Shown here: in pieces, positions 1 to 25,671 of the stretch
Layout: each line of letters begins with the position of its first letter
Position numbering within the stretch: position 1 is the first letter of the stretch
From: a virus
Length of the DNA stretch: 33,806 nt
Strand: one strand, 5' to 3'
Virus record (IMG/VR): IMGVR_UViG_3300032092_000128
Coordinates: 1-33,806 of that record
The notes under the pieces: model-generated
What the model was told of the DNA's origin: nothing
Seen by the model: only the letters and a program-made list of their open reading frames with translations
Database searches by the model: none
Program-made: the position numbers and the translations under genes

Positions 1-3000
1 TGTAATCGTCCACTGTCTGCTTGACCTTGGCAAACTCGTTCATACGATTGAATGTGCTGTTGATAATCTCGCCAGCATCGTTGGGCTGGAACGCCCCGCC
101 AATCAGTGCACGCTCAGACAAACGCTTGTAGGTCTTCTCAGGCGATCCTTCGGAAGAGAAGGGGGAGCTAACCACTTGCAAGAACGCCAAGCCCATAGTG
201 CCGGTGTAGCCCTTGATAAACTCCTCAACCTTGACAGGAGAAGCGCCGACCAAAGAGCCGTAAGCCTTGGCAATCTCGGTGGTGTTCTCACGGAACTGCG
301 CTTCTGGCAACAACTGTTGCTCGCCCTTAGACAGGATGTCGCGCCCTGTGTAGAACGACTTACCCAAAGAAGTCTCGATGATCGGCTTCATGGCTTGCGG
401 TATGGGCAGTAGCGTAGGAACCTTAAACCCGCCAACATCGATCGTAGCCATGCTAGTACCGCCGGGAATAGTCTGGATCAAGATTTGGTTAAACGCCTTA
501 ACCGCCTCTTCGCTACCATGCTCATTCATCATGGAGTTGTACAGCGCCTCTGGCAAAGCCTTGAAGATGTAGCCAATCTCAAACGGGATTGGTATACGAA
601 GCGGCTCTTCCACACCGGGGATACGTACAAACCAATTGCCGTACTTCTGATCTGGCGTAGCGTTCTTGTAAGCTTCATCGTCCTGCATCGAGGCGGCATA
701 CGCCAGCGTACCAGCGGCAATCATCAAGCCACGGGTCAACAACTTCTCCTGTATCTTCAAGCGCTCATTGAAAGGCAGGTTGCCTGTCAGGGCTTTGTAC
801 AGCACATTCAGACCTTGGATCTGTGCGTTGAAGAACGGGATCAGTGAGTTAGCCCAGTGGATGCTAGGTGACGCACCACGCTTGTTAAAGTTCATGGACT
901 CAAGCGCCATGTACGTGGCTTCCATCTCAGACAAGCCCTGCTTGATGTAGCTGTTGTATTGAGCGCGTCGTGTAAGCGCATCGGCTTCCATAGAGATAGC
1001 TTCTGCCCTAGACAGTAGTTCGGAAAACACGCCTCTGCCAGCCGTAATGTCACGCAAGATTTTGGTCAAGTCTTCGCTACCACCAGTAAACACCTGACCG
1101 CCTGTGATGCCTCGGCTCTCTAACGTGCCCTTGGTTGCGCTACCAATCTCTTTAAGCGCTCCAGTAACAGGGAAGAAATCAGCACCGGTCAATAGCGGGG
1201 CAGCTAAAGAATCACGGAACAACTGCCTAGCCGCATACAAAGGCGATGCCGTCACAGCCTTACGCAAGAACGTAGCGGGGGCTGCCATAGCACGCAGTGC
1301 AAACGGCATCTGGGACGGGATACCTTCCATGCCCTTGACCAAAACATCAGCAGGCACGCCTGCTTTGTCGGTAGCAATCAACGCATAGCGGTCGCCCGTG
1401 TCTTTGTCTTTCTCGTTCTTAGGATCAGGCTCAACCTTAAAACGAACCACGTTAGCGCCAGCAATAGGCTTACGGGTAATGGTTGCCAGACCTAAGTCAA
1501 CCAACTCAAAGACCGCGTTGCTAGTAGCTTGATTACGCAAAGCCATGTCAGTCAGCAAGTTTGTGTTCTGAACAGCGCTGGTCATGAAGTCAAGGATCGG
1601 TTCATCGCCACCCACCAACTCCTGCAAGTATGGCTGCTCTTTAATGTTACCAATCTTGACTGGGTTTTCTCCGCCAATCAGCAGTTCCACCACGCCGTTA
1701 CGCTGGCGGTAGTACGGGATGTAGTCCTTGGACGCAAGTAGCTTTTCCACAACAGCCCGTGGGAGCGCATGGGTCTGAGCCGCAAACCGTACCAGCCCCT
1801 CGTTGTAGGCGTTATATTCAGCCCGCGCTGTCTCAAACAGATCTTTAAGGCCGGGCGTGTTGTTAATAGCGCGGTTGGCGCTATCCAGTTCAGCCTGTGT
1901 GATCTTGCCGTTAAAGCCTAAAGTCTCCAGTCCCTTGTTCTGAGCGCGGATGCCAGCCAAATACAGCGTAAACAGACGGCTGGCGCCATCTGGACTGCCA
2001 ACCAAAGGTGATGCACGTTTGAGAATCTCAGCCACGCTACGGATGCTTGGCCCCTTGACGCTCTCAATGATGTACTCTTTACGGCCATCAGCACGGATTT
2101 TTTCTGTGCGTTGCAGTGCACCATTACCCACAGACTGCGCCACAAAGTTCATGCGCTGGTCGTACATGCGCAAGTAGTACAGCATCTGAGTGCCTTTGAG
2201 CTTTTCCATACCCTTAGACAGACGCTCAAACCCAGCAAACCGATCGACCATCTGCGTCTCAAACGCTAAACCAGAGCCGTTGGCTTTGATCTTGTCGTAC
2301 AGGTTTTTATCTTTAGCGACGACCTTGTCGACAATAGCGCCAGCCGCAGCCAACTCAGGCGTTGCGTAATTGGTACGCAAAGAAATCAAACCTGTTGGTG
2401 ACTCGTACGTGCCTGCAAACTCCTGTTGCATACGCTTGGTAGCTTGGAACATCGTGTAGTACAAGTCGCTTGTACTAACGTTAGCAAGTTTAAAGAAGCC
2501 AGTATTGCGCAACCACTGACGGATAGCGCCCAGCACAACTTTAATATAACGGCTAGCCTTCTGGACAAACGTCTCGTTGACTGTGGCCTCTTGCATGTGC
2601 GCCAGCATCTCACGCACAGACTGGATCTCACCCATACGGCGAATCTTTTGCGCAACTTCTACCTCGCCTTTTTGCTCGGCTTCAACAGCGCGTTGCTCCC
2701 ATGCAGTAGCTGACGCCACCACATCTTCTTCAACGCCCAAGGCTTTGGCCATACCGTAAATGCCGCCTTCTGTAGTACGAATGGCTTTGGTCAAGTCCAT
2801 CATACCTTGGGGGCCAAGCACCACGTCCACGCCATAGTGACCTACGGCTTCGTGAATCAAAGTCTTCTCTAAGTCCAGCGCGTCAGTGTGCTGATCGCCA
2901 ATAACAACAATCGTGCCGTCAGGTAGCACACCGCCTTTGACGGATGACTTTTCTACATTTACACCGGCGTTAGATAACGCTTTCAAATATTTAACTGGCG

Positions 3001-6000
3001 CCTGACTGAGTGTCGGGGCGTAAATAAACTTTACGTCTTTTGGTAATTTGCTTGCAAACTTGTCAGCAATAGCTTTAGCCTCTGCTTCAGCTATGGGGTT
3101 TATAACCGCCTCCGCTTCCACACGAAACACTGTGCCGTCTGTGTCATCAGAACTGTCAATCAAGCGCTTAACGTAGCCGCCAGTAACTTCTTTCAAAGCC
3201 TTGTTGTACTCAGGCGAACCCTTAGAGTACATGGTTACCAAACGGTCTTTCTTGGCAAAACCTTCAGCGGCTCTACGGACACGCTGTTCCTCAGACGACG
3301 CACTCTTAAGCTTTTGGTTTTGCTTAATCAACGGTTTAATGTCTGAGTTCTTCTCGTCACGCGCCAGTGTGCGCATGGCGCCCTTCATGTCTTTGACGTT
3401 TTCTGCAATAGGGGCACGGGTAGCGCCCTTTGTATCTTCTTCCGGCTTGCCCAGCAGAATTTCGTCAGCGGTCTTCTTAGCCGCAAAGTAACGCTTAGTC
3501 AGGTCAGCAAGGCGCTCTTCGTTCTTAACCTCCATTGGTTTCAAACGTGTTGACAGTTCAGTCAACCGAGCCTTGGTCTGGTCAAGTTGTTGCGTTAAGT
3601 CTTTAACACGGCGGTCGTAAGCCGACTCGCTGAGCGTGCTGATGTCGTACTCCTGCTTACGCTTAACTTCAGACAACTCGTAAGCAATCTTGTCGTATTG
3701 GTTTTGAGCGTTACGCACAGCAGTGCGTTGCTGGCTAATCTCTGTCTGCCCTTTAAGCGTACGTACATGCTCAATTTCTTTGCGTAGCTTCTCTTGCTCA
3801 GCACGCGCATCGGTGTACGTCTTGATGTCTTTCTTAGGCAAGCGGTTAATTTCCTGAGAAACCTGCCATTTAGTATCCAGTTCTGTAGACGTAGAACCAA
3901 CAACTTCTTTTACGGACACGTATCGAGCGCCTGCCAAGTCTTCCATGAAGAGTTCTTGGGCATCCAACTTCTCTTTGGCTACGTCAATACGGCGCTGGTC
4001 TAATGTTGTAAGCGCGTTTCTGTACGCCTTACGCGCCTTCTTAAGCGAGTCGTACGCTTTCTTAGCCGTAACGTTCTTACGTTTTTTGTCCGCGTCAGTA
4101 GCTTCTGAGTCGTTTTTGGGGTTGTAATTAAAGACGGGGCCGTCGGCTGTGTACTCCACAGTCCAGCCAGCGTTCATAGTTTGAACTTCGCGAGACTCAC
4201 CAAACCTACCAGAAGCGTAAGCTGCCTTGCGGCCTTCTTCGCTCAACGCTTTGACGCGGGTGACCTTGGTGCTGGGTATACCTGCGCCTGTTTGGATGCG
4301 TTCTTGTTGGGCTTTGGCGCTTATACGCGCGGCTTCTTTAGCGTTGTCTACAGCCTTCTGAGACAAAATAAGTGCGCTACGGCGTTTAGCTAAATCCGCT
4401 GTTTTCTTTTCATCTTTGTATGTAAGCGCTTTCTCAGCAGCTTTGAGCTTGGCCCATGCATCTTGCAATGCACTGTCGGCACGGCGAAACATTTCAACTT
4501 CGGCTTCTGTAACCTCAATAACTTTGCTTTCGGCTTCTTTAATGTTTGCGTCAATAGAAGCCAGTTGCTCACGCAACTCATACAAGTCCATGTTGAAGTC
4601 AAGAAACGCTTGCTTGTTTGTAGGGGGCGCGGCCCTAGACATCCGGTTAATAGCGTCAAACACTTCTCCGCGGCTTTCCCGCAAAGACTCAATCAAGTCT
4701 GCTTTTTCTTGCGTTTGTTTTTGTTCCTGCTCTCTTGCGCGTTCTCTGGCGCGTCCCAAAGCCGTTTTAAATGGCTCTGCTGGATCAACATCGGTGCTGT
4801 ACTCTTCCATGAAACTTTCACGGAGTTGCACCAAGCGGCCTTCAGCCGTGCGCATAAACTGCTCAGTCTCTAGCTCGGTTCTGTAAGCTTCCAAACTTTG
4901 AATTTCAAACTCAGACTGCGCACGCTGATCTGGCTCTTCGCCTTTCATGCGATTGCGCACAGCCGCAAGCTGTTTATTAACCGCGCCCATTTTTGCTTGG
5001 AATGCGTCGCCTTTGGGAATGTCCGCTGGCTTTTCTTTCACTACGGGTTCGGTCAGGCCATTTTTACGGGCTAACTCATCCATGTCAGTCATGGCAGCTT
5101 TTAAACGATCAACGTTTTTCTGCGCCATTGACAAACCAATTTCGCGGCTATCGTTTTCTACATCAAGACCTTGAATTTTGGCTTCAGCAACAATCTGTTG
5201 GAGATCTTCCGAGTATTTACTTATTTCTAACAACTTTGCGTTGTTAGCCATTTTTTCGTATAGATCGGCACGTTCTTGCAAGCGCTTGGATTCTTCTTTG
5301 TATAAATTTGCCTTACGCTCTAATACAGAATTTCCTGACGCATTAGCTTCCGCTCTAGTCTCGAACGCCTTTTCGCGCATCCTGTCCGCTTGAAACGTGT
5401 ACTGTCCTGCCAACACGCCGTAGTAATTAAACTGTGTAGCTTCTGGTCTTTTGCGTAAATCCTGCAATGCGCCAAGCGCAGTCACGTAATCAGTACGTGC
5501 TTTCTGTAAATCTTCAAACCGCACAGGCATGATGCTGGCAAGGCGATTTGCTTCTTTACGTAGCTTGGCAATCTTGCCGTATTTAGAAGAACCCAAGAAC
5601 TGTTCTGGAGTGTCAAAGATGACGCCTTGTTCGGCGGTGGGAGCGAACAGGTCAGGTGTTTCAACCTGCACGGCACGTTTTTCTCCTTCGGGGCCTTCAA
5701 ATTTAAACTGAGCAGTATCGGCACCCTTTGCGGCAAAGAGTCCGAGGTCGTCAAGCGATGCTTGATTCTGTGCAAGGCTCTTCTGTAGCGCTTCCATGCG
5801 CTTGTTGAGACGCTTGAGTTCCTGTTGCTGCTCTTCAGACAAACCACGGCGCGGGACTTTTGCACCAACTTTAACTTCTTTGCCGGGGGCAATACCCACG
5901 AGAGCGTCAAGTTCGCCTTGCGTGTCTCTGATAGCACGCTCCAGCACCCGCTGGTTGTACTCAAGATCAGTGCCAAGCTCAGACGCTAAGTCTTCGCCCA

Positions 6001-9000
6001 AATCCAACTGCTGCATACGAGCAAGCAGTTTGGCTGTCTTATCGTAGTCCTTGGCGGCAAACGCTTCCTTGATCTGGGTTTCCAGTTCAGCGGCTTCGTC
6101 GCGTCGTTCTTTAAAGTTAAGCGGTGTCTCAGGCGCTTTCTGGCGCTCACCAAGTTCTGCTTGCTGTTTGTTGTAGCGGGCGGTCAGTCCTTGGATTTCT
6201 TTAGTCAGTCTTGCACGGTTTTCGTTTTCACCTTGCTTGTTTTTCAACGCATCAAGCTGATCTTGTTTTTCTTTGATCTGCGCCAACAATCCCTGACGAC
6301 GCTCAATCTCAGACACTTCTACACGCTTGCGCTCAGGCTTAGCCAATAGTTTGGCTTCAGCCGCTTCCAACTGTTCTTTAATTGTCTCAACCGCTTTTTG
6401 GCGGTCAGCAAACGGGCGTTGGCTGGCAGGGCGTATGTCTTTTTCTTTTCTGCCTTTGGTAAGCCTAGGCTCGTCCAGACGTTTCATCAGGTCTGTAATG
6501 TCTTGCGTAACCCTAGAATCGTGCGCTGCATAATCGTCAAACTTCTTTTTACGCAACAAGTAGCGCTGTTGCATTTGATCGCGGGCAATATACGCTTGGC
6601 TACCAACTGGGCCTTCTGGCATGGCCAACCATTTTTGACGGGCAGGTTCTAAATCTTCACGACGATAGCGCTCCATCTGATCGCGTAGACGCATTGACTC
6701 CTGTTGCTTGGCCTTGATCTTGTTGCGGATTGGTTTTTGCTGGCTCTCAACTAGCTTGTTAATATCAGCTATCAGAGCATCACGTTTTGCCGTTAATGCA
6801 GGAGATTTTGCGTAATCTTTTTTACTTAACTCAGCCAACTGTTCCTGCATCTTCTGCAGTTTGTTGACTCTGGTGACAACGGTTTCTTTGACAGGCTTTG
6901 CCACATACCGAGTGCTCAACTCTTTAAGCGAGTCGTACATGTCGTTGGTAGCTTGCAGAATCTGGGCGCTAGACAGGGGTGACTGTCTCTCAGCCGCACG
7001 CAAGTGCGCCGCTTCTTTCAATGCCGCTTGTACGTACTGGGTACGCAGCTTAGACAAATACATTAAATCGTACTTGTGTGGTGCTTCCTTGGCTTTGCGT
7101 TTGGTTTCCAACGCTTCAAGCAGCTTGTCGTAAGCGTTGTCTTTGGCTTGTTTTTGACGTCTAGCTTCCAGCGTATGGCGCTGTGAACTGATTGCTTCGT
7201 TGTCTAAAGTTTTAAGTTCTGCCGCACCACTGACGCCCATAACCTGTGCCAACTCATTGGCATCTTTGGCGTTCATCTTCTCGATGGGGGTCAGCGTAGT
7301 GTCAATAGTTGCTTTACGTTCTGGTGCAGCAATTACCTTCTCGGCAAGGCGTTCTTCTCCAGCCGCAGTACGGCGACCACGCTTGCCTTCCTCAATATGC
7401 TTGAGTAGGCGCTCCAGTTCCTGCGCCTGCATATCACGCCACAGAATCTCTTTGGCTTTCTCTGACAAGTTGCCTTCTGTGTCGTACAGATTGTTTTCGG
7501 CAAAAGGATCAGCCATGTACTGATCGAGTAGTTCTTGCGCTTTCTGTTTGCTGTCATTGAGCTTGGTACGCAACTTACCTTCAACAAACTCTGCGTCTTC
7601 AATGACGTTGAGGTCAAGCTTCCTGTTGCTAAGACCTTTGAGACCAAGAATGTCTTTGACTTCTGAATTGATAATGCCTGAGTCAATGGCTTCGTCCACG
7701 CCCGTCTTGGCAACCTTTGGCTCTTGCTCTTGCAGTTCCTTGGCTTCTTTCTCTGTCAAGTCACGGCTAACACCCTTTTCATCAACGATGTAAGGTATGC
7801 GTACAGTGGGGCCTGTGGGCAGTTTGCCAGCGGCTGGCGTAGATAAAAGAGTGCGGAACTCTGCTGGCGCGCGCTCCTTGGGCACTTCGCGATACAGAAC
7901 CTTTGGTGCAGCTTTGCCTGCTTGTGCTTCGGGGCCAACAAAGTCAGGGTCAATACCGCGGCTCAGTGAATCTGCATACTCTTCAGGAGTGAGAGTCTTT
8001 TTCTTACCTTCTTCTCTAGCTTTAATACTTTCTTCGTATTCTTGCTCGGCAGTAAACAGGTCTTCGTCCCTGCTAACTTGGGACTCAGGTTGCTTCTCAG
8101 TGATCTGCTCAATGTCTTGTTGTGCTTGCCGGCGATCTCTTTGATCCAACTCTTTTTGGAATTCAGCGCCAAACATGTCTACCTGTTCAGTAGGCAGGGC
8201 TCGGAGGCTACGCGGCATCGTCTCACCGGGAACCTTACGCTCAAGCCCCGCTTGTGTAGTTTCCAGTTTTTCTAACTGTGCGGCTAGTTTTTGAGCCTTG
8301 GCAAAGTCACCATCGTCCAGAGCTTTATCCAACGCTTTGCGTACCGAGCCTAGATCCGCTTCAGCAGGGGCTAATTTGTTTAGTTGTTTAAGCGTACTTT
8401 TGAGGCTTTCTTCTGCCGGCACCATTTTCTCAAGCTGTTTGGACAGTGAGATAATTCGATCAAATCCTGCTGGTGTAGTCTGCAGTTTTTCTAATTGTGC
8501 GGATAGTGTTTGGGCTTTATCAAAGTCGCCGTCAGCCAATGCTTTATCCCGCGCTCTCTGCATGTCCTGCTTAGCCCTAACGTCTTGCAGTTGTTTCTGC
8601 AAGTCTGGGATTACACGTCTAGCTTGCTCCAAGTCCGTAGTAGCACGCTCACGCAACATGGTCTGTAGACCTTCAGGCGTCTGTCCTGAGATCTCATCAT
8701 CGGTATAGCCCAACTGCTTGGCTATGCTATTAAGCTGTTCGGTACGCGCACGCTCTGCATCAGGCAATTCAGAGTATTTACCAACAACTGTCTCGTCACC
8801 CATCTGCGCCAACAACTCAGGCGTGCCTATCTTTCTAGCTTGGGCTAAACGCTTTTCTTCTGCTTTGGCTAAACGTGCTTGTTCTTTGGCGGCTTCAGCT
8901 TGTTGCTTGGCTGTCTCTTTGTCTATGCGCTCTTGTTCTTTTCGCGTCTCTTCTTCTTGAAGCTGGCGCATCTGCTCTTCTTGACGCGCTATTTCCTGTT

Positions 9001-9967
9001 GCTGCTCTATCTCGCCCCGTGCACCGGATCGTTGGGATAAACGCGCGGCGCCCCCTACTGGTGCCAGTAGCGCAGCACTTATTGCAGTTCTGCCGTAGCC
9101 TTCAATTGCTTCAGGCGATGTAATTTCTTCCCCTGCTTGCGCACGGGTCATCATGTCTTGCAACACTTCCCCGGGTATTTCTGCTACCGTACCAATAGCA
9201 GTGCCTTTAGCCAACGTTGTAAGTATTTTTTCCTTCGCTAGCTTTTCAACTTCTGCAGCAGACTTACGGGCAAGTGACGTTTCGGTAGTGCCCAAAAGCT
9301 TGGCCAAGATACCTCTACCACCAACCAACAAACCTTGCGTAGCTGTATCAATTGCGGCTTGAGGGACAGCCGTTCCGTATGCTTTTAATCCACTGATATC
9401 TACGGGTTCACCGCGTTCAATTTGCGCTTGTGCTTGCGCTTCAATGTTTCCGCCAGCTTGGGGTAAATACGAAGCCGCAAAACGGCCAGCTAAAGCACCT
9501 ATACCAGCGCCAGCTAACCGACCAACACCGCCAAAAGGCCTGCCTAGTTTTTGACCAAGCTGAGCGCCTGCAATAGAGCTTGCTAAAGTTGGAGTTTGTT
9601 CTGCAACAGCGTACGGAACCATTTGTGCGGCTGTACCCACAGCAGGCAGTAAGCCTTTTTCTTCGTACGCTTTGATTACTTTTTCTGGGTCTGCTTGCGC
9701 CGCATACTCAGAACTAATTTTTTCACCGCGTGCAATACCGGCTCTAGCGGATTCTTCTGTTGGCCCGCTTAGTGCAGTCCTAGCCTGTGAGGTATAGGAC
9801 TCCAAGCCCTTCATCACAGCGGCGGCAAGACCTTCTTTGGGTTTACGCTCTGCGGTTTTTGCACCGCCTGTCATTTCTCGGGCTATCTGGGCCAGTCGCC
9901 TTGCCGCCTCCTTATCACCTGCTGCATCTGCGTTGCGGAGGGCTTCAAGGACTTGGCTGATTTCCAT
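1..9967 (-). CDS. Giant polyvalent/ejection-type virion protein with HExxH metallopeptidase motif and LPD38-like C-terminus (partial)
   Basis: The frame is open from the ATG at 9967 to the left edge with no stop, giving at least 3,322 residues; the C-terminus lies outside the window. Residues about 110-175 are a hydrophobic Gly/Ala-rich stretch. Residues about 316-2290 are highly charged and largely coiled-coil-like. A zincin motif HEAVGHYG sits at residues 2372-2379 (bases 2854-2831); E2453 in VREMLAHMQE is my candidate third zinc ligand. From about residue 2960 the sequence resembles large polyvalent protein-associated domain 38, including IHWANSLIPFFNAQIQG near residues 3036-3052. Such proteins are known in phages as internal or ejected virion components. 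The start is 5 nt after the previous stop, with a weak AGG about 8 nt upstream. The ejection role is inferred. The motif and length are seen directly, and peptidase activity is unproven. Confidence 0.85.
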   Translation of the reverse strand, partial: MEISQVLEALRNADAAGDKEAARRLAQIAREMTGGAKTAERKPKEGLAAAVMKGLESYTSQARTALSGPTEESARAGIARGEKISSEYAAQADPEKVIKAYEEKGLLPAVGTAAQMVPYAVAEQTPTLASSIAGAQLGQKLGRPFGGVGRLAGAGIGALAGRFAASYLPQAGGNIEAQAQAQIERGEPVDISGLKAYGTAVPQAAIDTATQGLLVGGRGILAKLLGTTETSLARKSAAEVEKLAKEKILTTLAKGTAIGTVAEIPGEVLQDMMTRAQAGEEITSPEAIEGYGRTAISAALLAPVGGAARLSQRSGARGEIEQQQEIARQEEQMRQLQEEETRKEQERIDKETAKQQAEAAKEQARLAKAEEKRLAQARKIGTPELLAQMGDETVVGKYSELPDAERARTEQLNSIAKQLGYTDDEISGQTPEGLQTMLRERATTDLEQARRVIPDLQKQLQDVRAKQDMQRARDKALADGDFDKAQTLSAQLEKLQTTPAGFDRIISLSKQLEKMVPAEESLKSTLKQLNKLAPAEADLGSVRKALDKALDDGDFAKAQKLAAQLEKLETTQAGLERKVPGETMPRSLRALPTEQVDMFGAEFQKELDQRDRRQAQQDIEQITEKQPESQVSRDEDLFTAEQEYEESIKAREEGKKKTLTPEEYADSLSRGIDPDFVGPEAQAGKAAPKVLYREVPKERAPAEFRTLLSTPAAGKLPTGPTVRIPYIVDEKGVSRDLTEKEAKELQEQEPKVAKTGVDEAIDSGIINSEVKDILGLKGLSNRKLDLNVIEDAEFVEGKLRTKLNDSKQKAQELLDQYMADPFAENNLYDTEGNLSEKAKEILWRDMQAQELERLLKHIEEGKRGRRTAAGEERLAEKVIAAPERKATIDTTLTPIEKMNAKDANELAQVMGVSGAAELKTLDNEAISSQRHTLEARRQKQAKDNAYDKLLEALETKRKAKEAPHKYDLMYLSKLRTQYVQAALKEAAHLRAAERQSPLSSAQILQATNDMYDSLKELSTRYVAKPVKETVVTRVNKLQKMQEQLAELSKKDYAKSPALTAKRDALIADINKLVESQQKPIRNKIKAKQQESMRLRDQMERYRREDLEPARQKWLAMPEGPVGSQAYIARDQMQQRYLLRKKKFDDYAAHDSRVTQDITDLMKRLDEPRLTKGRKEKDIRPASQRPFADRQKAVETIKEQLEAAEAKLLAKPERKRVEVSEIERRQGLLAQIKEKQDQLDALKNKQGENENRARLTKEIQGLTARYNKQQAELGERQKAPETPLNFKERRDEAAELETQIKEAFAAKDYDKTAKLLARMQQLDLGEDLASELGTDLEYNQRVLERAIRDTQGELDALVGIAPGKEVKVGAKVPRRGLSEEQQQELKRLNKRMEALQKSLAQNQASLDDLGLFAAKGADTAQFKFEGPEGEKRAVQVETPDLFAPTAEQGVIFDTPEQFLGSSKYGKIAKLRKEANRLASIMPVRFEDLQKARTDYVTALGALQDLRKRPEATQFNYYGVLAGQYTFQADRMREKAFETRAEANASGNSVLERKANLYKEESKRLQERADLYEKMANNAKLLEISKYSEDLQQIVAEAKIQGLDVENDSREIGLSMAQKNVDRLKAAMTDMDELARKNGLTEPVVKEKPADIPKGDAFQAKMGAVNKQLAAVRNRMKGEEPDQRAQSEFEIQSLEAYRTELETEQFMRTAEGRLVQLRESFMEEYSTDVDPAEPFKTALGRARERAREQEQKQTQEKADLIESLRESRGEVFDAINRMSRAAPPTNKQAFLDFNMDLYELREQLASIDANIKEAESKVIEVTEAEVEMFRRADSALQDAWAKLKAAEKALTYKDEKKTADLAKRRSALILSQKAVDNAKEAARISAKAQQERIQTGAGIPSTKVTRVKALSEEGRKAAYASGRFGESREVQTMNAGWTVEYTADGPVFNYNPKNDSEATDADKKRKNVTAKKAYDSLKKARKAYRNALTTLDQRRIDVAKEKLDAQELFMEDLAGARYVSVKEVVGSTSTELDTKWQVSQEINRLPKKDIKTYTDARAEQEKLRKEIEHVRTLKGQTEISQQRTAVRNAQNQYDKIAYELSEVKRKQEYDISTLSESAYDRRVKDLTQQLDQTKARLTELSTRLKPMEVKNEERLADLTKRYFAAKKTADEILLGKPEEDTKGATRAPIAENVKDMKGAMRTLARDEKNSDIKPLIKQNQKLKSASSEEQRVRRAAEGFAKKDRLVTMYSKGSPEYNKALKEVTGGYVKRLIDSSDDTDGTVFRVEAEAVINPIAEAEAKAIADKFASKLPKDVKFIYAPTLSQAPVKYLKALSNAGVNVEKSSVKGGVLPDGTIVVIGDQHTDALDLEKTLIHEAVGHYGVDVVLGPQGMMDLTKAIRTTEGGIYGMAKALGVEEDVVASATAWEQRAVEAEQKGEVEVAQKIRRMGEIQSVREMLAHMQEATVNETFVQKASRYIKVVLGAIRQWLRNTGFFKLANVSTSDLYYTMFQATKRMQQEFAGTYESPTGLISLRTNYATPELAAAGAIVDKVVAKDKNLYDKIKANGSGLAFETQMVDRFAGFERLSKGMEKLKGTQMLYYLRMYDQRMNFVAQSVGNGALQRTEKIRADGRKEYIIESVKGPSIRSVAEILKRASPLVGSPDGASRLFTLYLAGIRAQNKGLETLGFNGKITQAELDSANRAINNTPGLKDLFETARAEYNAYNEGLVRFAAQTHALPRAVVEKLLASKDYIPYYRQRNGVVELLIGGENPVKIGNIKEQPYLQELVGGDEPILDFMTSAVQNTNLLTDMALRNQATSNAVFELVDLGLATITRKPIAGANVVRFKVEPDPKNEKDKDTGDRYALIATDKAGVPADVLVKGMEGIPSQMPFALRAMAAPATFLRKAVTASPLYAARQLFRDSLAAPLLTGADFFPVTGALKEIGSATKGTLESRGITGGQVFTGGSEDLTKILRDITAGRGVFSELLSRAEAISMEADALTRRAQYNSYIKQGLSEMEATYMALESMNFNKRGASPSIHWANSLIPFFNAQIQGLNVLYKALTGNLPFNERLKIQEKLLTRGLMIAAGTLAYAASMQDDEAYKNATPDQKYGNWFVRIPGVEEPLRIPIPFEIGYIFKALPEALYNSMMNEHGSEEAVKAFNQILIQTIPGGTSMATIDVGGFKVPTLLPIPQAMKPIIETSLGKSFYTGRDILSKGEQQLLPEAQFRENTTEIAKAYGSLVGASPVKVEEFIKGYTGTMGLAFLQVVSSPFSSEGSPEKTYKRLSERALIGGAFQPNDAGEIINSTFNRMNEFAKVKQTVDDY

Positions 9968-9972
9968 GGCGG

Positions 9973-12147
9973 TTACCTAAGATATTTATTGATTAGTGCG
10001 GAGTCAGAAGCTGACAACCCAACACCCGAAGAAGCGGATGCTGATCTCATTATAGAAGGAAGTCCAAGGCTTGCATAGATAGCTGTGCGAACACGGTCTT
10101 CTTCACGTTGTTTAGCCAAACCACCATCTTGGTTTATGCCGGCAAACTTGCCTTCATTGCTCTTCATCCAATCAGACATGTGGCTTTGGATCATCTTCTC
10201 GGCTTCCAACTCCATCTTCTTCTCTTTACCACCACGCTCAATAAGCGAAGCCGCGGCTTCAGCTTCTTTGGCTTTAGCTTTTTTGTAGCCCAACTCAGCG
10301 TCAATCATAGTTTGCTCACGCGCCGTCTTCTCGCGTTCTTTCTTACCAGCAACGGTAGCCAATCCGGCTTCGCCAAGTGCGGTCATAAAGTTTGGAGATT
10401 TGCTTGCCAACAAACTTAAACCTAAAGTTAACAGATCGTCATTGCTAAAGCCCTTGCGTTCTTTGGCAGGGGTAGCTTCTTCAGCGGCTTTGACAATGTC
10501 ATTACTCGTCATCGGCGCTTGGTTAGCTTCCCGCATACGCTCAAGTTCAGCGTCGTCAATACCTTTAAACGGAATTTTTCCAGCCGCTGTATTAGCCGCA
10601 GGCGCGGCACTATCAGGAGGCAACACTGTATTTGCAAGCGATTCCACACGGCCTGCAGCTTGGGTTTTTCCGCCTGTTTGCGCTAGACGTTGAGCCGTGG
10701 CCACATCTTGTCCTTCTCGTAACAGCGAGGCTTCCGCAATCTGCGATGCTTTGCTTGGAACTTGGCTAGCGCGGTTGGCTTCTATCATCTTGCGCAAGTA
10801 CTCTTGTTCTTCCAGCGTAGCGCCAGCAGCTTGCGCTTCTTTAGTGGCTTGTTGAGTAGCTTCTAACGCTTTCAAACCGCTAGTGTCTTTTTGCAATGCC
10901 GCAATATCGGCTTTAGACATGCTTCCGGGAGGGCCTTTTAAAAGACCTAGTTTTTCGGCAACCTTTTCGCCCAAAGCAGCAATGCCAGACGACCCCGCTT
11001 TAGTTGAACCCACTACAGGCGCCAAAGGCGTGGGGGCATTTAACGTAGTACCAATCTGGCGCTGAGCTTCAAGAGGTATGCCCATCCTGTCAGCTATCCG
11101 ACCAAAGAACGAGTTAGTTTGATCGTAGTTAGACGCAGGCGCTTGTACAGACTGGCCGGGGATCTGTGCAGCCGAGCTAGTGTCGGCAGGAACCGCAGCA
11201 GGTTTGGCGGGTAGTGTGCCAGCTTCCGCAGAAGGAATGACAGACGTAGCCAAATCTGCCACACGGTCTTTCCAACCTTTAGCGTAAGGGGCAAACTTCT
11301 CTGGGTTGTCTTTGACCAAGTTATTGTAGTGCTGTTGGCGCAAGTTAAGCATTGCAGAGGGGTCGCCTTTGGACTGCGCAATAAGTTGGCTTGCTTTGCT
11401 GACGCCCATGTTGACCGCAGTATCAAATGCAATTGTAGCTAGCGCTGGATCTTTTGCAGCCAAAGCATCGCCGCCAATAGCGTCCCAATAACGTTTCTTG
11501 TAAAGCTCCCGCGCTTTTTCTTTAGTTAGATTTTTAACATCAACATCAGGGTTAGCGGACTTATTGATACCAAAGTTAGACTCACCTTTGCCTGCGTCGT
11601 CCTTAACGTAGCCGCCTTCGTACTTCAATGTTTTCTGAAGAGCCGCCTCAAACGCCGCATTAACAGCGCCTGTATTTTTAAATCCAGGCATGTAGCCAGC
11701 CATACCGCCACCAGCCATACGCACTACTGGCTCGCTTTGCTGGGCAAAGTTAAACATGCCGCCCATACCACCTGTGGCCATGCCTTCTTCGTCGTCTTCG
11801 TAACCAGCAATACCGCCGTCAGCCATACGTTGCATATTAGGTGTGGGGATCTGGGCTATGCCTTGATCTTCTGGAAGTTGTGTTTGCGCAGGTGCTGGCG
11901 CTGGTGCGGGGGTCATTGCTGCAATGTTTTGGTCTACAACAGTAGGCATAGGGCCGCCTGCCTGCATCGCTTTAGATCGCTCGGCCGCTTTTACAATGTT
12001 GTTGACATGTACTGCAGTTGCAACAACTGCGGGGTCGTTTCTGTGCTGTGCGGCATAGGCTTGCCGTCCTCGGGCATCCATGCCCGCCAGCATAGTAGTC
12101 AAAGCATCAATGCGTTCACGGCTGTAAGGGTTTTGTGTTTGAAGCAT
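9973..12147 (-). CDS. Virion-associated protein with GH108-type N-acetylmuramidase domain
   Basis: This is a 724-residue protein. Residues about 162-305 match the GH108 lysozyme-like family: the KYEGGYVKD segment contains the probable catalytic Glu177, followed by SNFGI, and the downstream RYWDAIGGDAL block is typical of the family. Before it lies a low-complexity region with an Ala-Pro run (about 79-90) and three GG-rich motifs such as RMADGGIAGY and RMAGGGMAGYMPG. After it comes a long Ala/Lys/Glu-rich region predicted to be helical. A gene of this kind between hub and giant protein fits a virion-carried muralytic enzyme that opens the wall on entry, distinct from the separate endolysin. 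An AGAGG site sits 6 nt before the ATG. The domain call is firm and the virion location is inferred. Confidence 0.75.
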   Translation of the reverse strand: MLQTQNPYSRERIDALTTMLAGMDARGRQAYAAQHRNDPAVVATAVHVNNIVKAAERSKAMQAGGPMPTVVDQNIAAMTPAPAPAPAQTQLPEDQGIAQIPTPNMQRMADGGIAGYEDDEEGMATGGMGGMFNFAQQSEPVVRMAGGGMAGYMPGFKNTGAVNAAFEAALQKTLKYEGGYVKDDAGKGESNFGINKSANPDVDVKNLTKEKARELYKKRYWDAIGGDALAAKDPALATIAFDTAVNMGVSKASQLIAQSKGDPSAMLNLRQQHYNNLVKDNPEKFAPYAKGWKDRVADLATSVIPSAEAGTLPAKPAAVPADTSSAAQIPGQSVQAPASNYDQTNSFFGRIADRMGIPLEAQRQIGTTLNAPTPLAPVVGSTKAGSSGIAALGEKVAEKLGLLKGPPGSMSKADIAALQKDTSGLKALEATQQATKEAQAAGATLEEQEYLRKMIEANRASQVPSKASQIAEASLLREGQDVATAQRLAQTGGKTQAAGRVESLANTVLPPDSAAPAANTAAGKIPFKGIDDAELERMREANQAPMTSNDIVKAAEEATPAKERKGFSNDDLLTLGLSLLASKSPNFMTALGEAGLATVAGKKEREKTAREQTMIDAELGYKKAKAKEAEAAASLIERGGKEKKMELEAEKMIQSHMSDWMKSNEGKFAGINQDGGLAKQREEDRVRTAIYASLGLPSIMRSASASSGVGLSASDSALINKYLR

Positions 12148-12156
12148 GTTTACCTC

Positions 12157-13185
12157 TTATGCCATGTTATAGATAGCCAAGTCTGCCAGACCAGCAGGAC
12201 GCTCGTCAACCGAGCCACCTTCAGCAAACACACCCAAGGCTTTACCTGTAATACCTAAACCAGCCGCTTGTTGAATCATTGATGGGGGTTGTGCGTACAT
12301 GGTCTGAGACTGTTGAGTCAAAGGCAAACCACGAATCATGTCAGACATAAAGCCCAGTTGCTTGTACGGGTAGTTCTGATAGTTCAGGAAGTCTTGGTAC
12401 TCGGTGTTTAGCTGGTTCTGTATTTGGCCTTGCTGCTGTGTACCAAACTTATTCTGAACGTCCAAGAGGCCAAGGTTCTGTCCGTACTGTGTTTGACCAA
12501 TATCAGCCAAAGACTTAGCGCCTGTCATGGCTGTTTGTAAACCTTGAAGTCCAAGACCTGCGCCAAACTGTTGTTGCTGTGCGTTTAGTTGTTGTCCAGC
12601 CAAGTTCTGCGCTTGGGATTGGTTGAACTGCCCCATGGCTTGTGTATACGCGTCTTGCAGACCCTTGGCTTGGATGTCGCCCTTTTGACGCATTAAAGAA
12701 GCGTTGAGTTGGTTATTGGCAAGAAGATTGCCGCTACCGCCAAAAGCACCGGAACGAGCAGCTTGGGCATTTTGCATTTGACGGGAAATCTCCCCCTGCC
12801 GCTGTGCGTCTGCCTGCTGGCGCTCCACTACATTTTGCGTGTAGGGATTCATGTACGCTTGAACGTTATTACCCGTAAACTGTTGTGCTTGGTATGGGTT
12901 GAACGTGTACTGCGTATTGAGTGCGCCCAAGCCTGCCAAACCCGCCATAGCTGTGGCATCACCCAACTGAGGGGCGGTCTGCATGAGCCCTGCGTTCTCA
13001 AAGGACTGTTGTTGCAGAGGAGTAAACTGTGCCTGACGATCCCGCATGTACTGCATGTATGGGGTTTCGTCGACGTCCGTTAACAGTTCCGCTTTACCTA
13101 GCAAGGTTTCTGCAAAAGGCGCTATGACAGGCGCAAAACCTGTTTGGTACTCTTGTATTGACGTTGGTGTTGGTGCTGTTGCCAT
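12157..13185 (-). CDS. Gln/Asn-rich internal virion-type protein
   Basis: This 342-residue protein is strikingly rich in Gln, Asn, Ala and Gly, with runs such as QLNAQQQQFGAGLGLQGL. The middle section (about 110-260) is a long polar, probably helical region without Cys. The C-terminus carries FAEGGSVDERPAG, a GG motif resembling those in neighbouring large proteins. No enzymatic motif is visible. It lies between the GH108 protein and the 937-residue protein, with 9-10 nt gaps and an AAGGA ribosome site, so it is part of the same translational run. Comparable Gln-rich proteins occur in the internal-virion blocks of short-tailed phages. I infer an ejection or internal core role from position and composition only. 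Confidence 0.6.
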   Translation of the reverse strand: MATAPTPTSIQEYQTGFAPVIAPFAETLLGKAELLTDVDETPYMQYMRDRQAQFTPLQQQSFENAGLMQTAPQLGDATAMAGLAGLGALNTQYTFNPYQAQQFTGNNVQAYMNPYTQNVVERQQADAQRQGEISRQMQNAQAARSGAFGGSGNLLANNQLNASLMRQKGDIQAKGLQDAYTQAMGQFNQSQAQNLAGQQLNAQQQQFGAGLGLQGLQTAMTGAKSLADIGQTQYGQNLGLLDVQNKFGTQQQGQIQNQLNTEYQDFLNYQNYPYKQLGFMSDMIRGLPLTQQSQTMYAQPPSMIQQAAGLGITGKALGVFAEGGSVDERPAGLADLAIYNMA

Positions 13186-20309: not shown

Positions 20310-21143
20310 TTAAAAAGTAATTGAACCGCTGCTAGTCCAGCTATAAATACGATAACCACCAGTAACGGTAATTGTTGGAGCACCTGTTGTACTTATCGCG
20401 GCATCATACCCGTCTACGTACCGAATAAGTACAATACCAGAAGCCCCAGCAGCACCGTCTGTAGCGCCTTGACCGCCTCCGCCTCCACCGCCTCCAGTAT
20501 TTGCTGTGCCGGGACTTCCATTATTGCCAGAAGTTCCTGCATTACCGCCGCCGCCAGCACCTCCAGCACCAGCGGAACTTAAACCACCTGCACCGCCACC
20601 ACCTGCGTATGCTGTTCCATTAAATGCAGTTGAGCCAGCACCGCCAGCACCGCCATTATTGCCAACACCAGCTACACCAACAGCACTTGCTCCACCACCG
20701 CCTCCCGATGAATCGCCCGATGATGGAGATGCGCCGCCATCATTTCCTTGTCCTGCTGTACCAGTGCCCCCTGCTCGCAAGCCCCCTCCGCCGCCGCCGC
20801 CGCCTCCAGAACCGCCTGTCAGTCCGGCAGCGCGAGTTCCTCCGCCGCCACCGGCTGTAGAAGTAATGGTGCTAAACACAGAATTACTACCACTAGTGCC
20901 AGTATTACCACCGCCTCCATTACCCCCACCACCAACAGTAACCGTGATGGGCGTTCCTGATGCAACCGCAAAACCCGTGGCAGTTCTATAACCTCCCGCA
21001 CCGCCGCCGCCGCCTCCGCCGCCTCCGGCTGTTCCACCACCACCGCCACCACCGCCAGCAACTACTACATATTCAACAGTAGGTGTTTTTCCGGAAGCAA
21101 ATGAGCGTTGGTTTTGAAAAACCGCTTGTAGTGCGCCACTCAT
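20310..21143 (-). CDS. Glycine-rich tail-fibre/adhesin-like protein (copy 2)
   Basis: With the ATG at 21143 the protein has 277 residues, exactly the length of its paralogue at 21653-22486. A reading from 21170 adds nine residues but ignores two facts: the ATG at 21143 overlaps the preceding TGA (ATGA), and it gives the same MSG beginning as the paralogue. After the N-terminus come EYVVVAGGGG, long Gly-rich runs, and a shared ending with PTITVTGGYRIYSWTSSGSI. Glycine-rich domains of this kind, possibly polyglycine helix bundles, occur in phage receptor-binding and fibre-tip proteins. I infer a host-contact role. Confidence 0.72.
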   Translation of the reverse strand: MSGALQAVFQNQRSFASGKTPTVEYVVVAGGGGGGGGTAGGGGGGGGGAGGYRTATGFAVASGTPITVTVGGGGNGGGGNTGTSGSNSVFSTITSTAGGGGGTRAAGLTGGSGGGGGGGGGLRAGGTGTAGQGNDGGASPSSGDSSGGGGGASAVGVAGVGNNGGAGGAGSTAFNGTAYAGGGGAGGLSSAGAGGAGGGGNAGTSGNNGSPGTANTGGGGGGGGQGATDGAAGASGIVLIRYVDGYDAAISTTGAPTITVTGGYRIYSWTSSGSITF

Positions 21144-21643
21144 GTCAAACCACTCCCAGAGATGAGCCAATTTGTCGAGGTTATTTTAATAGCTGTTGCA
21201 GAACCATATTGAGCAAGACTTCGTGAGCCTGTAGTTCCAGAAGGAGACAAATACATTGTGTCTGTCGTTATAGCAATTGTTACCACTTGGCTTGTCATAT
21301 TTATAAATGTGATTGCCGTCCCAATTGCGTAAGCCACAGAACTGTTTGCGGGAATAGTAAATGTCCTTGCATTGGCATCAGCCGCAGGATGAAGAATTGT
21401 TTTGCCCGAATCTGCCAAGACCAATGTGTAAGCCGCACTCTGACTATTAACAGGAATATTTCTAAAGCCTACTGCGTCAGTGCCGTCAACTGTGCAAGAT
21501 GATAATACGCCACTTGCTGGCGTACCTAATGCGGGAGTTGTTAGCGTAGGCGAGGTCAGCGTTTTATTTGTTAGTGTATTTGTGCTTGTTGCCGTGACAA
21601 CATTGCTAGGGGTGATGATTGCTGATAGTGCTACTGTAGCCAT
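21140..21643 (-). CDS. Short tail-fibre domain protein (copy 2)
   Basis: This 167-residue protein corresponds to the C-terminal part of the 604-residue fibre at 22483-24297. Both contain TLTNKTLTSPTLTTP followed by LGTP-x-SG, then a CTVDGT block, a G[FY][RQ]NIP block, and a beta-rich end. It lacks the fibre's N-terminal anchoring region, so it may assemble with, or as an alternative tip of, the larger fibre. A GAGGA site lies 7 nt before the ATG. The stop overlaps the next start as ATGA, the same linkage used by the upstream pair. Confidence 0.68.
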   Translation of the reverse strand: MATVALSAIITPSNVVTATSTNTLTNKTLTSPTLTTPALGTPASGVLSSCTVDGTDAVGFRNIPVNSQSAAYTLVLADSGKTILHPAADANARTFTIPANSSVAYAIGTAITFINMTSQVVTIAITTDTMYLSPSGTTGSRSLAQYGSATAIKITSTNWLISGSGLT

Positions 21644-21652
21644 AATTTATCC

Positions 21653-22486
21653 TCAAAATGTAATTGAACCTGAACCAGTCCATCTATAGTTGCGAAAGCC
21701 GCCTGAAACTGTAATTGTTGGAGAACCCGTAGTTGATGTTGCGGCCAGAAAAGTGTCTGCATAGCGAAGAATTACGACTCCAGAACCACCACTTCCGCCT
21801 TCAACCCCAGTGTCATTACCGCCAGCACCGCCACCGCCTGTTCCAGCATCGCCGGGATCACTGCGCGTCCCACCACCTCCACCGCCTGTTCCTCCAGCGC
21901 CAGTATCATAGTTGTCACGACCAGCACCCGCGCCCCCGCCAGCATAGAAAGTACCATTTGAATATTGCTTACCAGCACCGCCAGCACCAGTTATGTTGCC
22001 CGGCGGATTTGGAAGACCGCCAGTACCGCCGACTGCACCAGCACCGCCGCCGCCGCCACCATAGTCGCCACTATTAGCGCCGCCATTATTACCAAAACCA
22101 TAAGTTCCAGAAGCGCCAGCTTGAGAGGGCTGAGTACCAGTACCGGCAGAGCCGCCACCGGGGGAGCCGCCACCAGAACCGCCAGAGTTTGAAGTGCCAG
22201 AAATAAACCCGCCGCCTCCACCAACTGCGGTTATTGATGAAAATGTAGAGTTAGTTCCATTACCGCCATTACTACCAGTGCCACCGCCACCGCCACCCAC
22301 TGCGATACTGTAAGGAGTGCCAGCGACAACAGCAAAATTTGTTTGGTTAAAATAGCCACCAGCACCACCACCGCCGCCATGACGTTCCGCGCCTGCACCT
22401 CCGCCAGCAACAACTAGCAAATCAATTGTAGGCGTGACTCCACCACCAAATGAGCCGCCAGCCAAATTAAGCATAATTCCACTCAT
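21653..22486 (-). CDS. Glycine-rich tail-fibre/adhesin-like protein (copy 1)
   Basis: This 277-residue protein begins MSGIMLNLAGGSFGGG, followed by DLLVVAGGGAGAERHGGG and a long Gly-rich body with many GGGG runs. It ends with PTITVSGGFRNYRWTGSGSI, matching the end of its paralogue at 20310-21143. The composition fits a rigid fibre-tip or adhesin, and surface-exposed Gly-rich loops would tolerate fast change. The ATG at 22486 overlaps the upstream fibre TGA (ATGA), so the two are probably translated together and may form one complex. The receptor and exact role are unknown. Confidence 0.72.
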   Translation of the reverse strand: MSGIMLNLAGGSFGGGVTPTIDLLVVAGGGAGAERHGGGGGAGGYFNQTNFAVVAGTPYSIAVGGGGGGTGSNGGNGTNSTFSSITAVGGGGGFISGTSNSGGSGGGSPGGGSAGTGTQPSQAGASGTYGFGNNGGANSGDYGGGGGGAGAVGGTGGLPNPPGNITGAGGAGKQYSNGTFYAGGGAGAGRDNYDTGAGGTGGGGGGTRSDPGDAGTGGGGAGGNDTGVEGGSGGSGVVILRYADTFLAATSTTGSPTITVSGGFRNYRWTGSGSITF

Positions 22487-24306: not shown

Positions 24307-25671
24307 CTAGTTCGTTGAAACATCAGCCCAAGCCGCTGTTTGTGTATTACCGATATTCTGCCAGTTTGCGGTCTGTGTGTCATCTATTACACTCCAAGCA
24401 ATTGCCTGTGCAATTGAGCCAACCGATCCAGTTGCTGAAACTCCTGACAACGATACCGCAATATTAAGAGAGCCTACTGAACCTGTAGCACTAACACCAG
24501 ACAACGCAACTAAAGACGTAAATGTAACCGTTCCAACACTGCCAGTTGCACTAACGCCCGTAAGCGCTACACCAACACCTACACTGCCTACCGTACCTGT
24601 AGCTTGAACACCCGACAACAGTTGCCCAACACCAAGCGATTCAACCGCGCCGGTACCCGCTACACCTGTGAGATCAACACTTTTTACACCTTCAACCAAC
24701 CCCACTTCGCCTGTACCCGCTACGCCGGAAAGTTGTATACCTACCCCAACCGACCCAACTTCGCCTGTACCCGCTACACCGGATAGGACAACACTTTCTA
24801 CAACTTCTTCAGTGCCTACCTGACCCGTAGCAGATACACCTGTAAGAGCAACGCTTTCCTCAACTCCCACCGATCCAACAAAACCTGTACCCGCTACGCC
24901 GGAAAGTTGTAACCCGGTTCCAACGGTTCCTACCGATCCTGTACCAGATACCCCAGAAAGCTGTCTACCTACTCCAACGGAACCTACCGCCCCAGTAGCA
25001 GATACCCCTGACAACGATGTTTCAATATTTAGTGTACCAACTGAGCCTGTACCAGACACCCCAGATATTGCGGCTGATGCACTATAAATAACCGATCCAA
25101 CTTGGCCTGTACTTGCCACGCCTGTAAGAGCAACGTTTTCCGCAACCCCAACCGACCCAACAGAACCTGTACCGGCTACACCGGTTAGCGCAACACTTTC
25201 CTCAACTCCTACTGATCCAACAGAACCCGTACCTGATACACCCGTAAGAGCAACACTTTCTGCAACTCCCACTGATCCAACTTGGCCTGTACCTGCCACG
25301 CCTGTAAGAGCAACACTTTCTGCAACCCCAACCGATCCAACTGAGCCAGTAGCAGCTACTCCAGTAAGAGCAACACTTTCTGCAACTCCTTCACTGCCCA
25401 CCTGACCCGTAGCAGATACCCCTGTAAGAGCAACACTTTCTGCAACTCCTACTGACCCGACTGAGCCAGTACCTGCTACGCCAGTAAGAGCTACACTTTC
25501 TGCAACTCTAACTGTCCCGACAGAACCTGTACCTGCTACTCCGGTTAGCGCAATTGAAATTACTAAAGCAACTGTCCCAACAGCGCCCGTGGCTGATACA
25601 CCTGTGAGCGCATTTTGACTACCGCCCCAAGTATTACTACCCCAAGTGCCTGCGCCCCATGCTGTGGACAT
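24307..25671 (-). CDS. Repetitive structural protein with 21 short repeats
   Basis: This 454-residue protein consists of a 20-residue N-terminus with three tryptophans (AWGAGTWGSNTWGG), exactly 21 repeats of 18 or 20 residues, and a 30-residue tail. The consensus repeat is [AQ]L[TS]GV[AS][GA]TG-x-VG[ST]VGVxxS. The tail has a Trp-containing near-repeat (WSVIDDTQTA, then NWQNIGNTQTA, then AWADV). Such regular Gly/Val/Thr repeats are compatible with a beta-solenoid or stacked-strand rod. The gene sits between minor structural proteins and the fibre, so a fibre-base, baseplate-like or decoration role is reasonable but not shown. Confidence 0.7.
   Translation of the reverse strand: MSTAWGAGTWGSNTWGGSQNALTGVSATGAVGTVALVISIALTGVAGTGSVGTVRVAESVALTGVAGTGSVGSVGVAESVALTGVSATGQVGSEGVAESVALTGVAATGSVGSVGVAESVALTGVAGTGQVGSVGVAESVALTGVSGTGSVGSVGVEESVALTGVAGTGSVGSVGVAENVALTGVASTGQVGSVIYSASAAISGVSGTGSVGTLNIETSLSGVSATGAVGSVGVGRQLSGVSGTGSVGTVGTGLQLSGVAGTGFVGSVGVEESVALTGVSATGQVGTEEVVESVVLSGVAGTGEVGSVGVGIQLSGVAGTGEVGLVEGVKSVDLTGVAGTGAVESLGVGQLLSGVQATGTVGSVGVGVALTGVSATGSVGTVTFTSLVALSGVSATGSVGSLNIAVSLSGVSATGSVGSIAQAIAWSVIDDTQTANWQNIGNTQTAAWADVSTN
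24400..25611 (-). repeat. Coding tandem repeat, 21 units of 54 or 60 bp
   Basis: Thirteen 20-residue and eight 18-residue units account exactly for the 404 residues between the N-terminal and C-terminal segments of the repeat protein. Each unit carries a GV-x-[GA]TG-x-V core. The units differ at synonymous positions, so the array is not newly expanded. Confidence 0.85.

Follow-up and report, generated by a model that had tools for sequence, protein, structure and literature searches.

A probably delivered giant phage protein with a predicted HEXXXH zincin-type peptidase, and the apparent in-place exchange of this domain among its relatives

The way in which proteins of 3,000-4,500 residues pass through a phage tail and then act inside the host has yet to be explained, and the reason why many such giants carry a metallopeptidase has so far been guessed at but not tested. 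For the class of polyvalent proteins, delivery has already been proposed by Iyer et al. 2017 (PMC5512222); that study also describes the set with HEXXXH, the rarer variant of the MPTase motif among phage polyvalent proteins, proposes processing of such chains on independent grounds and states that DdrB of phage P1 is cleaved. The RNA polymerase of phage N4 (vRNAP) is an ejected protein with a lipid-binding NTD, a C1 domain carrying HExxH and a large C2 domain; its recombinant full-length form shows no degradation, its C-terminal domain represses transcription, and the accessible text of the report mentions no protease activity for C1 (PMC12633501). According to the polyvalent-protein study (PMC5512222), the same polymerase, whose MPTase domain is homologous, enters the virion without having been cut. 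In Burkholderia phage JC1, 51 unique peptides from purified virions have been assigned to gp69, an LPD38-bearing protein of 4,515 residues (PMC9144972). The present analysis concerns a giant protein encoded in a 33,806-base IMG/VR virus record, the whole of which forms the window analysed here, and the relatives of this protein in other viral contigs.

Extent, modules and gene neighbourhood of the giant protein

The minus strand of the window carries, from 9967 to 2, one uninterrupted open frame of 3,322 codons that is still open at the contig end, in agreement with an earlier sequence-only reading that had described a single giant frame unfinished within the window. Since the window spans the whole record, the open end of the frame is the end of the contig. 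For comparison, 80 relatives of the giant protein were collected from viral contigs; a search of bacterial genomes for relatives found none. The nearest relatives (L003-L007) are 77-90% identical to the giant across 3,200-3,300 residues, each in one intact frame, and in three of them (L003, L004 and L007) the stop falls 81-82 residues past the window edge. The 3' end of the giant gene (2..9967, minus strand; residues 1-3322) is thus cut by the contig end, and the complete protein is estimated from these relatives at about 3,404 residues. An assembly frameshift, named earlier as a possible objection, is not in evidence, since no break is seen and the full-length relatives share the same intact frame.

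When compared with the relatives, the chain falls into four parts: a module at the N-terminus (residues 1-314), an interior that varies, a slot for the peptidase (residues ~2290-2490) and a C-terminal module (residue 2544 to the end). The N-terminal module (9026..9967, minus strand) is Gly-rich and conserved, with 37-55% identity to 20 relatives and 42 invariant columns in the alignment with them; a search for it in the named-phage collection gave no match. Glycine-zipper matches are located near residues 127-167 (131-167, E 0.08), below the Pfam cut-off, and no 19-residue stretch of the N-terminus exceeds 1.3 on the Kyte-Doolittle scale, so that the membrane-active character earlier ascribed to this end of the chain is plausible but unproven.

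The interior (residues 315-2290; 3098..9025, minus strand) is charged and helix-prone and has been altered beyond recognition in most relatives. D, E, K and R constitute 32-38%, and aromatic residues 2-6%, of residues 251-2250, and the charged middle part described from the letters is real and low in aromatic residues. Scans of the interior against Pfam, PHROG, NCBIfam and PADLOC gave no family above the cut-off, and the idea that this region conceals an RNA polymerase or another enzyme of a named family was rejected, as these scans gave no match; for the giant as a whole, no T7-like single-subunit RNA polymerase domain was found in the Pfam, PHROGs and NCBIfam scans. Only one enzymatic domain is recognised in the entire chain. 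A motif of the form A-x-x-x-GD-x-x-x-A-x-x-L is present at residue 17, close to the N-terminal end, and again at residues 480 and 553 of the interior (window 9967..~8290).

The C-terminal module (2..2338, minus strand) is common to all relatives, with 46-76% identity over ~860 residues among 34 sequences. It contains the LPD38 domain (PF18857) at residues 3097-3280 (128..679, minus strand), matched at E 3.8e-30 with a score of 105.8 bits (cut-off 27), which confirms the LPD38-like end proposed previously.

Directly upstream of the giant gene lies the gene for a 724-residue protein (9973..12147, minus strand) with a GH108 muramidase domain at residues 171-248 (PF05838, E 1.4e-17; PHROG endolysin, E 8e-32), followed by that for a 342-residue ejection-like protein (12157..13185, minus strand; phrog_4287 'DNA ejection protein', E 6e-6). 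Homologues of the GH108 protein are encoded before the giant in 86 loci; the ejection-like protein has homologues in 87 loci, and among the loci listed these likewise lie upstream of the giant. Judged by this gene order, the giant gene closes a conserved cassette consisting of the ejection-like protein, the GH108 muramidase protein and the giant. In Pelagibacter phage HTVC034P, the gene of a relative is flanked by genes for an internal virion protein and for a tail fibre. Elsewhere in the window, a 454-residue protein (24307-25671, minus strand) is made up of 'ALTGV(A/S)xTGxVGSVGV' repeats and has no PHROG match, and two neighbours of 286 and 277 residues (20310-21170 and 21653-22486, minus strand) both align with one region of phrog_2295 (E 8e-35 and 1e-32) and are apparently a duplicated pair.

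The giant has LPD38 near the C-terminus, combines a zincin with LPD38 in one chain and lies adjacent to virion-type genes, as do LPD38 polyvalent proteins. It is best read as a polyvalent-class protein of the internal virion (ejection) type, its packaging and ejection being suggested by its relatives and the literature, and belongs to a known kind for which a functional proposal is available. As the interpretation of the class has already been published, the protein is less unusual than the sequence-only reading had supposed; the broad outline of that reading, namely a polyvalent protein with a zincin and LPD38 that is probably delivered and whose peptidase acts on itself or on the host, is supported by homology, synteny and literature.

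The predicted HEXXXH peptidase domain and its kinship

The zincin-like metallopeptidase domain (residues ~2290-2490; 2498..3100, minus strand), delimited with alignment A1 and AlphaFold2 models, carries the motif HEAVGH (H2372-E2373-x3-H2377; 2837..2854, minus strand). Three residues separate the E from the second H, and the motif is therefore HEXXXH and not HExxH; the zincin motif reported earlier at residues 2372-2379 (HEAVGHYG) was correctly positioned but wrongly labelled. H2372, E2373, H2377, E2453, A2456 and E2460 are invariant in the 24 relatives of alignment A1, the invariant set is the same in alignment A6 of 32 more broadly chosen sequences, and the catalytic H, E and H together with the distal E are unchanged across HEXXXH relatives at 15-93% identity. 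The Glu that had been guessed near residue 2453 is exactly E2453 (2609..2611, minus strand), the presumed third metal ligand.

The AlphaFold2 model of the domain (pLDDT 75, pTM 0.69) shows strands 44-47, 72-77 and 83-86, followed by helix 93-108 with H102/E103/H107 and then by helix 166-190 with E2453, which corresponds to the three-stranded sheet, the motif helix and the conserved helix with Glu of the HEXXXH set. Both His residues are thus predicted to lie on one helix and E2453 on a separate one, which agrees, as far as the helices go, with the structural check suggested earlier. A Foldseek search of the viral library with this model retrieved further proteins of the polyvalent and MuF types (best E 1e-7), and a search of the PDB returned helical-bundle noise and no significant match. 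A compact homologue is modelled better (pLDDT 80, core above 90), and its top PDB matches are mostly zincins (MATCAP, anthrax lethal factor and PprI), the best at E 0.07 and none significant. A sequence search of the PDB gave only 3e11, a predicted zincin-like metalloprotease, at E 0.13, and no Pfam model covers the domain. The top PDB profile match of the peptidase domain, a non-zincin protein, was disregarded. Descent of the domain from zincin-type peptidases is very probable, and much firmer than any claim about its use; metal-dependent proteolysis is predicted for it.

Profile comparison with hhalign aligned the HEXXXH family of the window with the HEXXH domain that occupies this slot in other relatives at probabilities of 92 and 96, which assigns the two domains to the same superfamily at the level of sequence profiles. 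The HEXXH domain of the relatives was in turn aligned with residues 2100-2450 (the MPTase region) of N4 vRNAP at a probability of 94, and the family of the window with N4 directly at 79 (E 1.6e-5), though at only 46 with the broader profile A6. A distant kinship thus appears to link the peptidase domain of the window with the HExxH domain in the RNA polymerase that N4 ejects. Between the C-terminal module and N4 C2 there is some likeness by eye, for which hhalign gave no support (probabilities below 1 with narrow or broad profiles), and homology of the N-terminal module with the N4 N-terminus was tested and found unsupported.

Retention and exchange of the peptidase among the relatives

The relation between size and peptidase was examined in the non-redundant complete relatives sharing the C-terminal module. 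An HEXXH or HEXXXH motif is present in all the relatives of at least 2,000 residues (74/74), as against 1.3% of shuffled upstream regions in which such a motif arises by chance. None of the five relatives shorter than 1,700 residues (908-1,678 residues) carries a zincin motif, and a relative of 1,724 residues carries one. The 908-residue case (L214, 3..6330, a relative of Vibrio phage 1.183.O) has an in-frame stop between the peptidase region (frame 3..3602) and the C-terminal module (frame from 3606), which may represent a split gene, a nonsense mutation or a sequencing error. Since its shortness is due to this stop, four of the five can fairly be counted as naturally short; these stem from Pelagibacter-type and Bacillus-type phages, and the short peptidase-free proteins represent only two or three lineages.

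On a tree built from 72 C-terminal modules, the type and position of the peptidase require a minimum of 25 changes, against a mean of 31.6 on shuffling. The tree was made quickly and contains several long branches, of which the close exchange pairs are independent. In the pairs L050/L051, L058/L060 and L022/L027, the flanks are mostly 70-96% identical on both sides while identity inside is ~20%, and the exchanged segment in close pairs comprises ~200 residues with crisp borders that correspond to the peptidase. As judged from these alignments, the peptidase cassette is swapped in place between the HEXXXH and HEXXH types.

The impression that some relatives are devoid of the peptidase proved to be wrong, the motif being located 430-630 residues upstream with another domain inserted. 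In L032, L036 and similar relatives, a conserved domain is found ~20-330 residues before the C-terminal module, downstream of the HEXXXH peptidase; it bears the motifs GIKFFDGVSR and NYVDFGDKDEGAQIIA and has no Pfam match. Some giants, among them L219, L024, L076 and L238, carry two zincin motifs per chain, of the same or different types. Culturable phages sharing the architecture of the giant include Vibrio phages 1.232.O and vB_ValP_FGH, Aeromonas phage phiARM81mr and Escherichia phage PTXU04.

A description of the in-place exchange or of the size relation was not found in the open-access literature to which the search was limited, as far as its available text extends, and the in-place exchange of the peptidase and its never-lost status in long chains are apparently new. 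A peptidase that is never lost and often swapped, together with its apparent dependence on chain length, provides a direct test of its role, for which closely related phages differing almost solely in the peptidase cassette supply the material.

Possible roles of the peptidase and comparison with known systems

In the scenario proposed here, the LPD38-bearing C-terminal module would help load the chain into the capsid, and at infection the giant chain would exit via the tail with the ejection-like and the muramidase-bearing proteins. The N-terminal module would engage the inner membrane, and the HEXXXH zincin, situated between the cargo and the C-terminal module, would cut the chain or a partner in the complex, whereby the delivered parts would separate. 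Such self- or complex-processing is put forward tentatively, as the leading reading at a little under an even chance, in which both the proteolysis and its substrate are conjectural. The distribution of the motif between long and short relatives is what one would predict for long chains that have to be cut, and the published proposal of processing fits this reading too. The uncut state of N4 vRNAP in the virion and the intactness of the recombinant protein count against self-processing, and no cleavage site was identified in the giant. As the flanks remain 75-95% identical through the swaps, a new peptidase would have to cut old sites if the cut sites are located in the flanks. It is also possible, at somewhat less than an even chance, that the peptidase constitutes an obligatory but exchangeable cassette, such that chains exceeding ~1,700-2,000 residues must carry a zincin whose types are replaced in place; if true, the peptidase would determine either how the delivered chain is processed or which host protein comes under attack.

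With the same delivery, the peptidase may instead be an effector that cuts host proteins such as defence, stress or transcription factors, the swaps reflecting an arms race over targets. The exchanges between HEXXXH and HEXXH types, with their near random scatter over the 72 modules, resemble the diversification of conflict effectors, and the lack of self-cleavage in N4 vRNAP and the extra domain that some relatives hold between the peptidase and the C-terminal module also speak for this reading. However, an effector that could be dispensed with would be expected to be missing, or replaced by a non-peptidase, in some relatives, whereas the long relatives are never without a peptidase and the short ones are; this reading is considered possible, though less likely than processing. 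That the zincin domain serves as a structural or regulatory, metal-binding part of the C-terminal region for which proteolysis is not needed is unlikely: the N4 polymerase, inhibited by its own C-terminal domain and with an HExxH in C1 for which the available text reports no protease activity (PMC12633501), offers a precedent, but the general-base Glu (E2373) and all the metal ligands are invariant in both families, which structure alone would not demand, and the catalytic set is kept through the swaps. That the motif arose by chance within a long helical chain, or the frame through an assembly error, might be suspected from the lack of a Pfam model and of a significant solved homologue in Foldseek, but is ruled out for practical purposes by the motif in every long relative against its rarity in shuffled sequences, the invariant distal Glu, the N4 profile matches and the same intact frame in the relatives.

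Read as an internal virion protein of the polyvalent class, the giant shares with N4 gp50 (vRNAP; 3,500 residues) its length and the order of N-terminal module, cargo, MPTase and large helical C-terminal module, and, as in the gp52-gp51-gp50 set of ejection proteins and vRNAP, its gene is the last of the ejection cassette. It differs from N4 gp50 in that the N4 cargo is an RNA polymerase, the N4 motif is HEXXH and the N- and C-terminal modules are not detectably homologous. Compared by position and activity with T7 gp14-gp15-gp16, the giant is the largest of three ejection proteins, like gp16, and the set includes a wall-degrading activity, although the muramidase resides here in the neighbouring protein. 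JC1 gp69 and Bcep22 gp75 (4,515 residues, called DarB-like) resemble it in giant size and in LPD38 near the C-terminus, JC1 gp69 being virion-associated by mass spectrometry, but their cargo has lytic transglycosylase, helicase and LPD3 regions (PMC9144972). Relative to the polyvalent proteins of Iyer et al. 2017 (PMC5512222), the interior of the giant is distinguished by having no recognised enzymatic domain, while the long multidomain phage chain, the HEXXXH MPTase combined with LPD38 and the location near virion genes are common to both.
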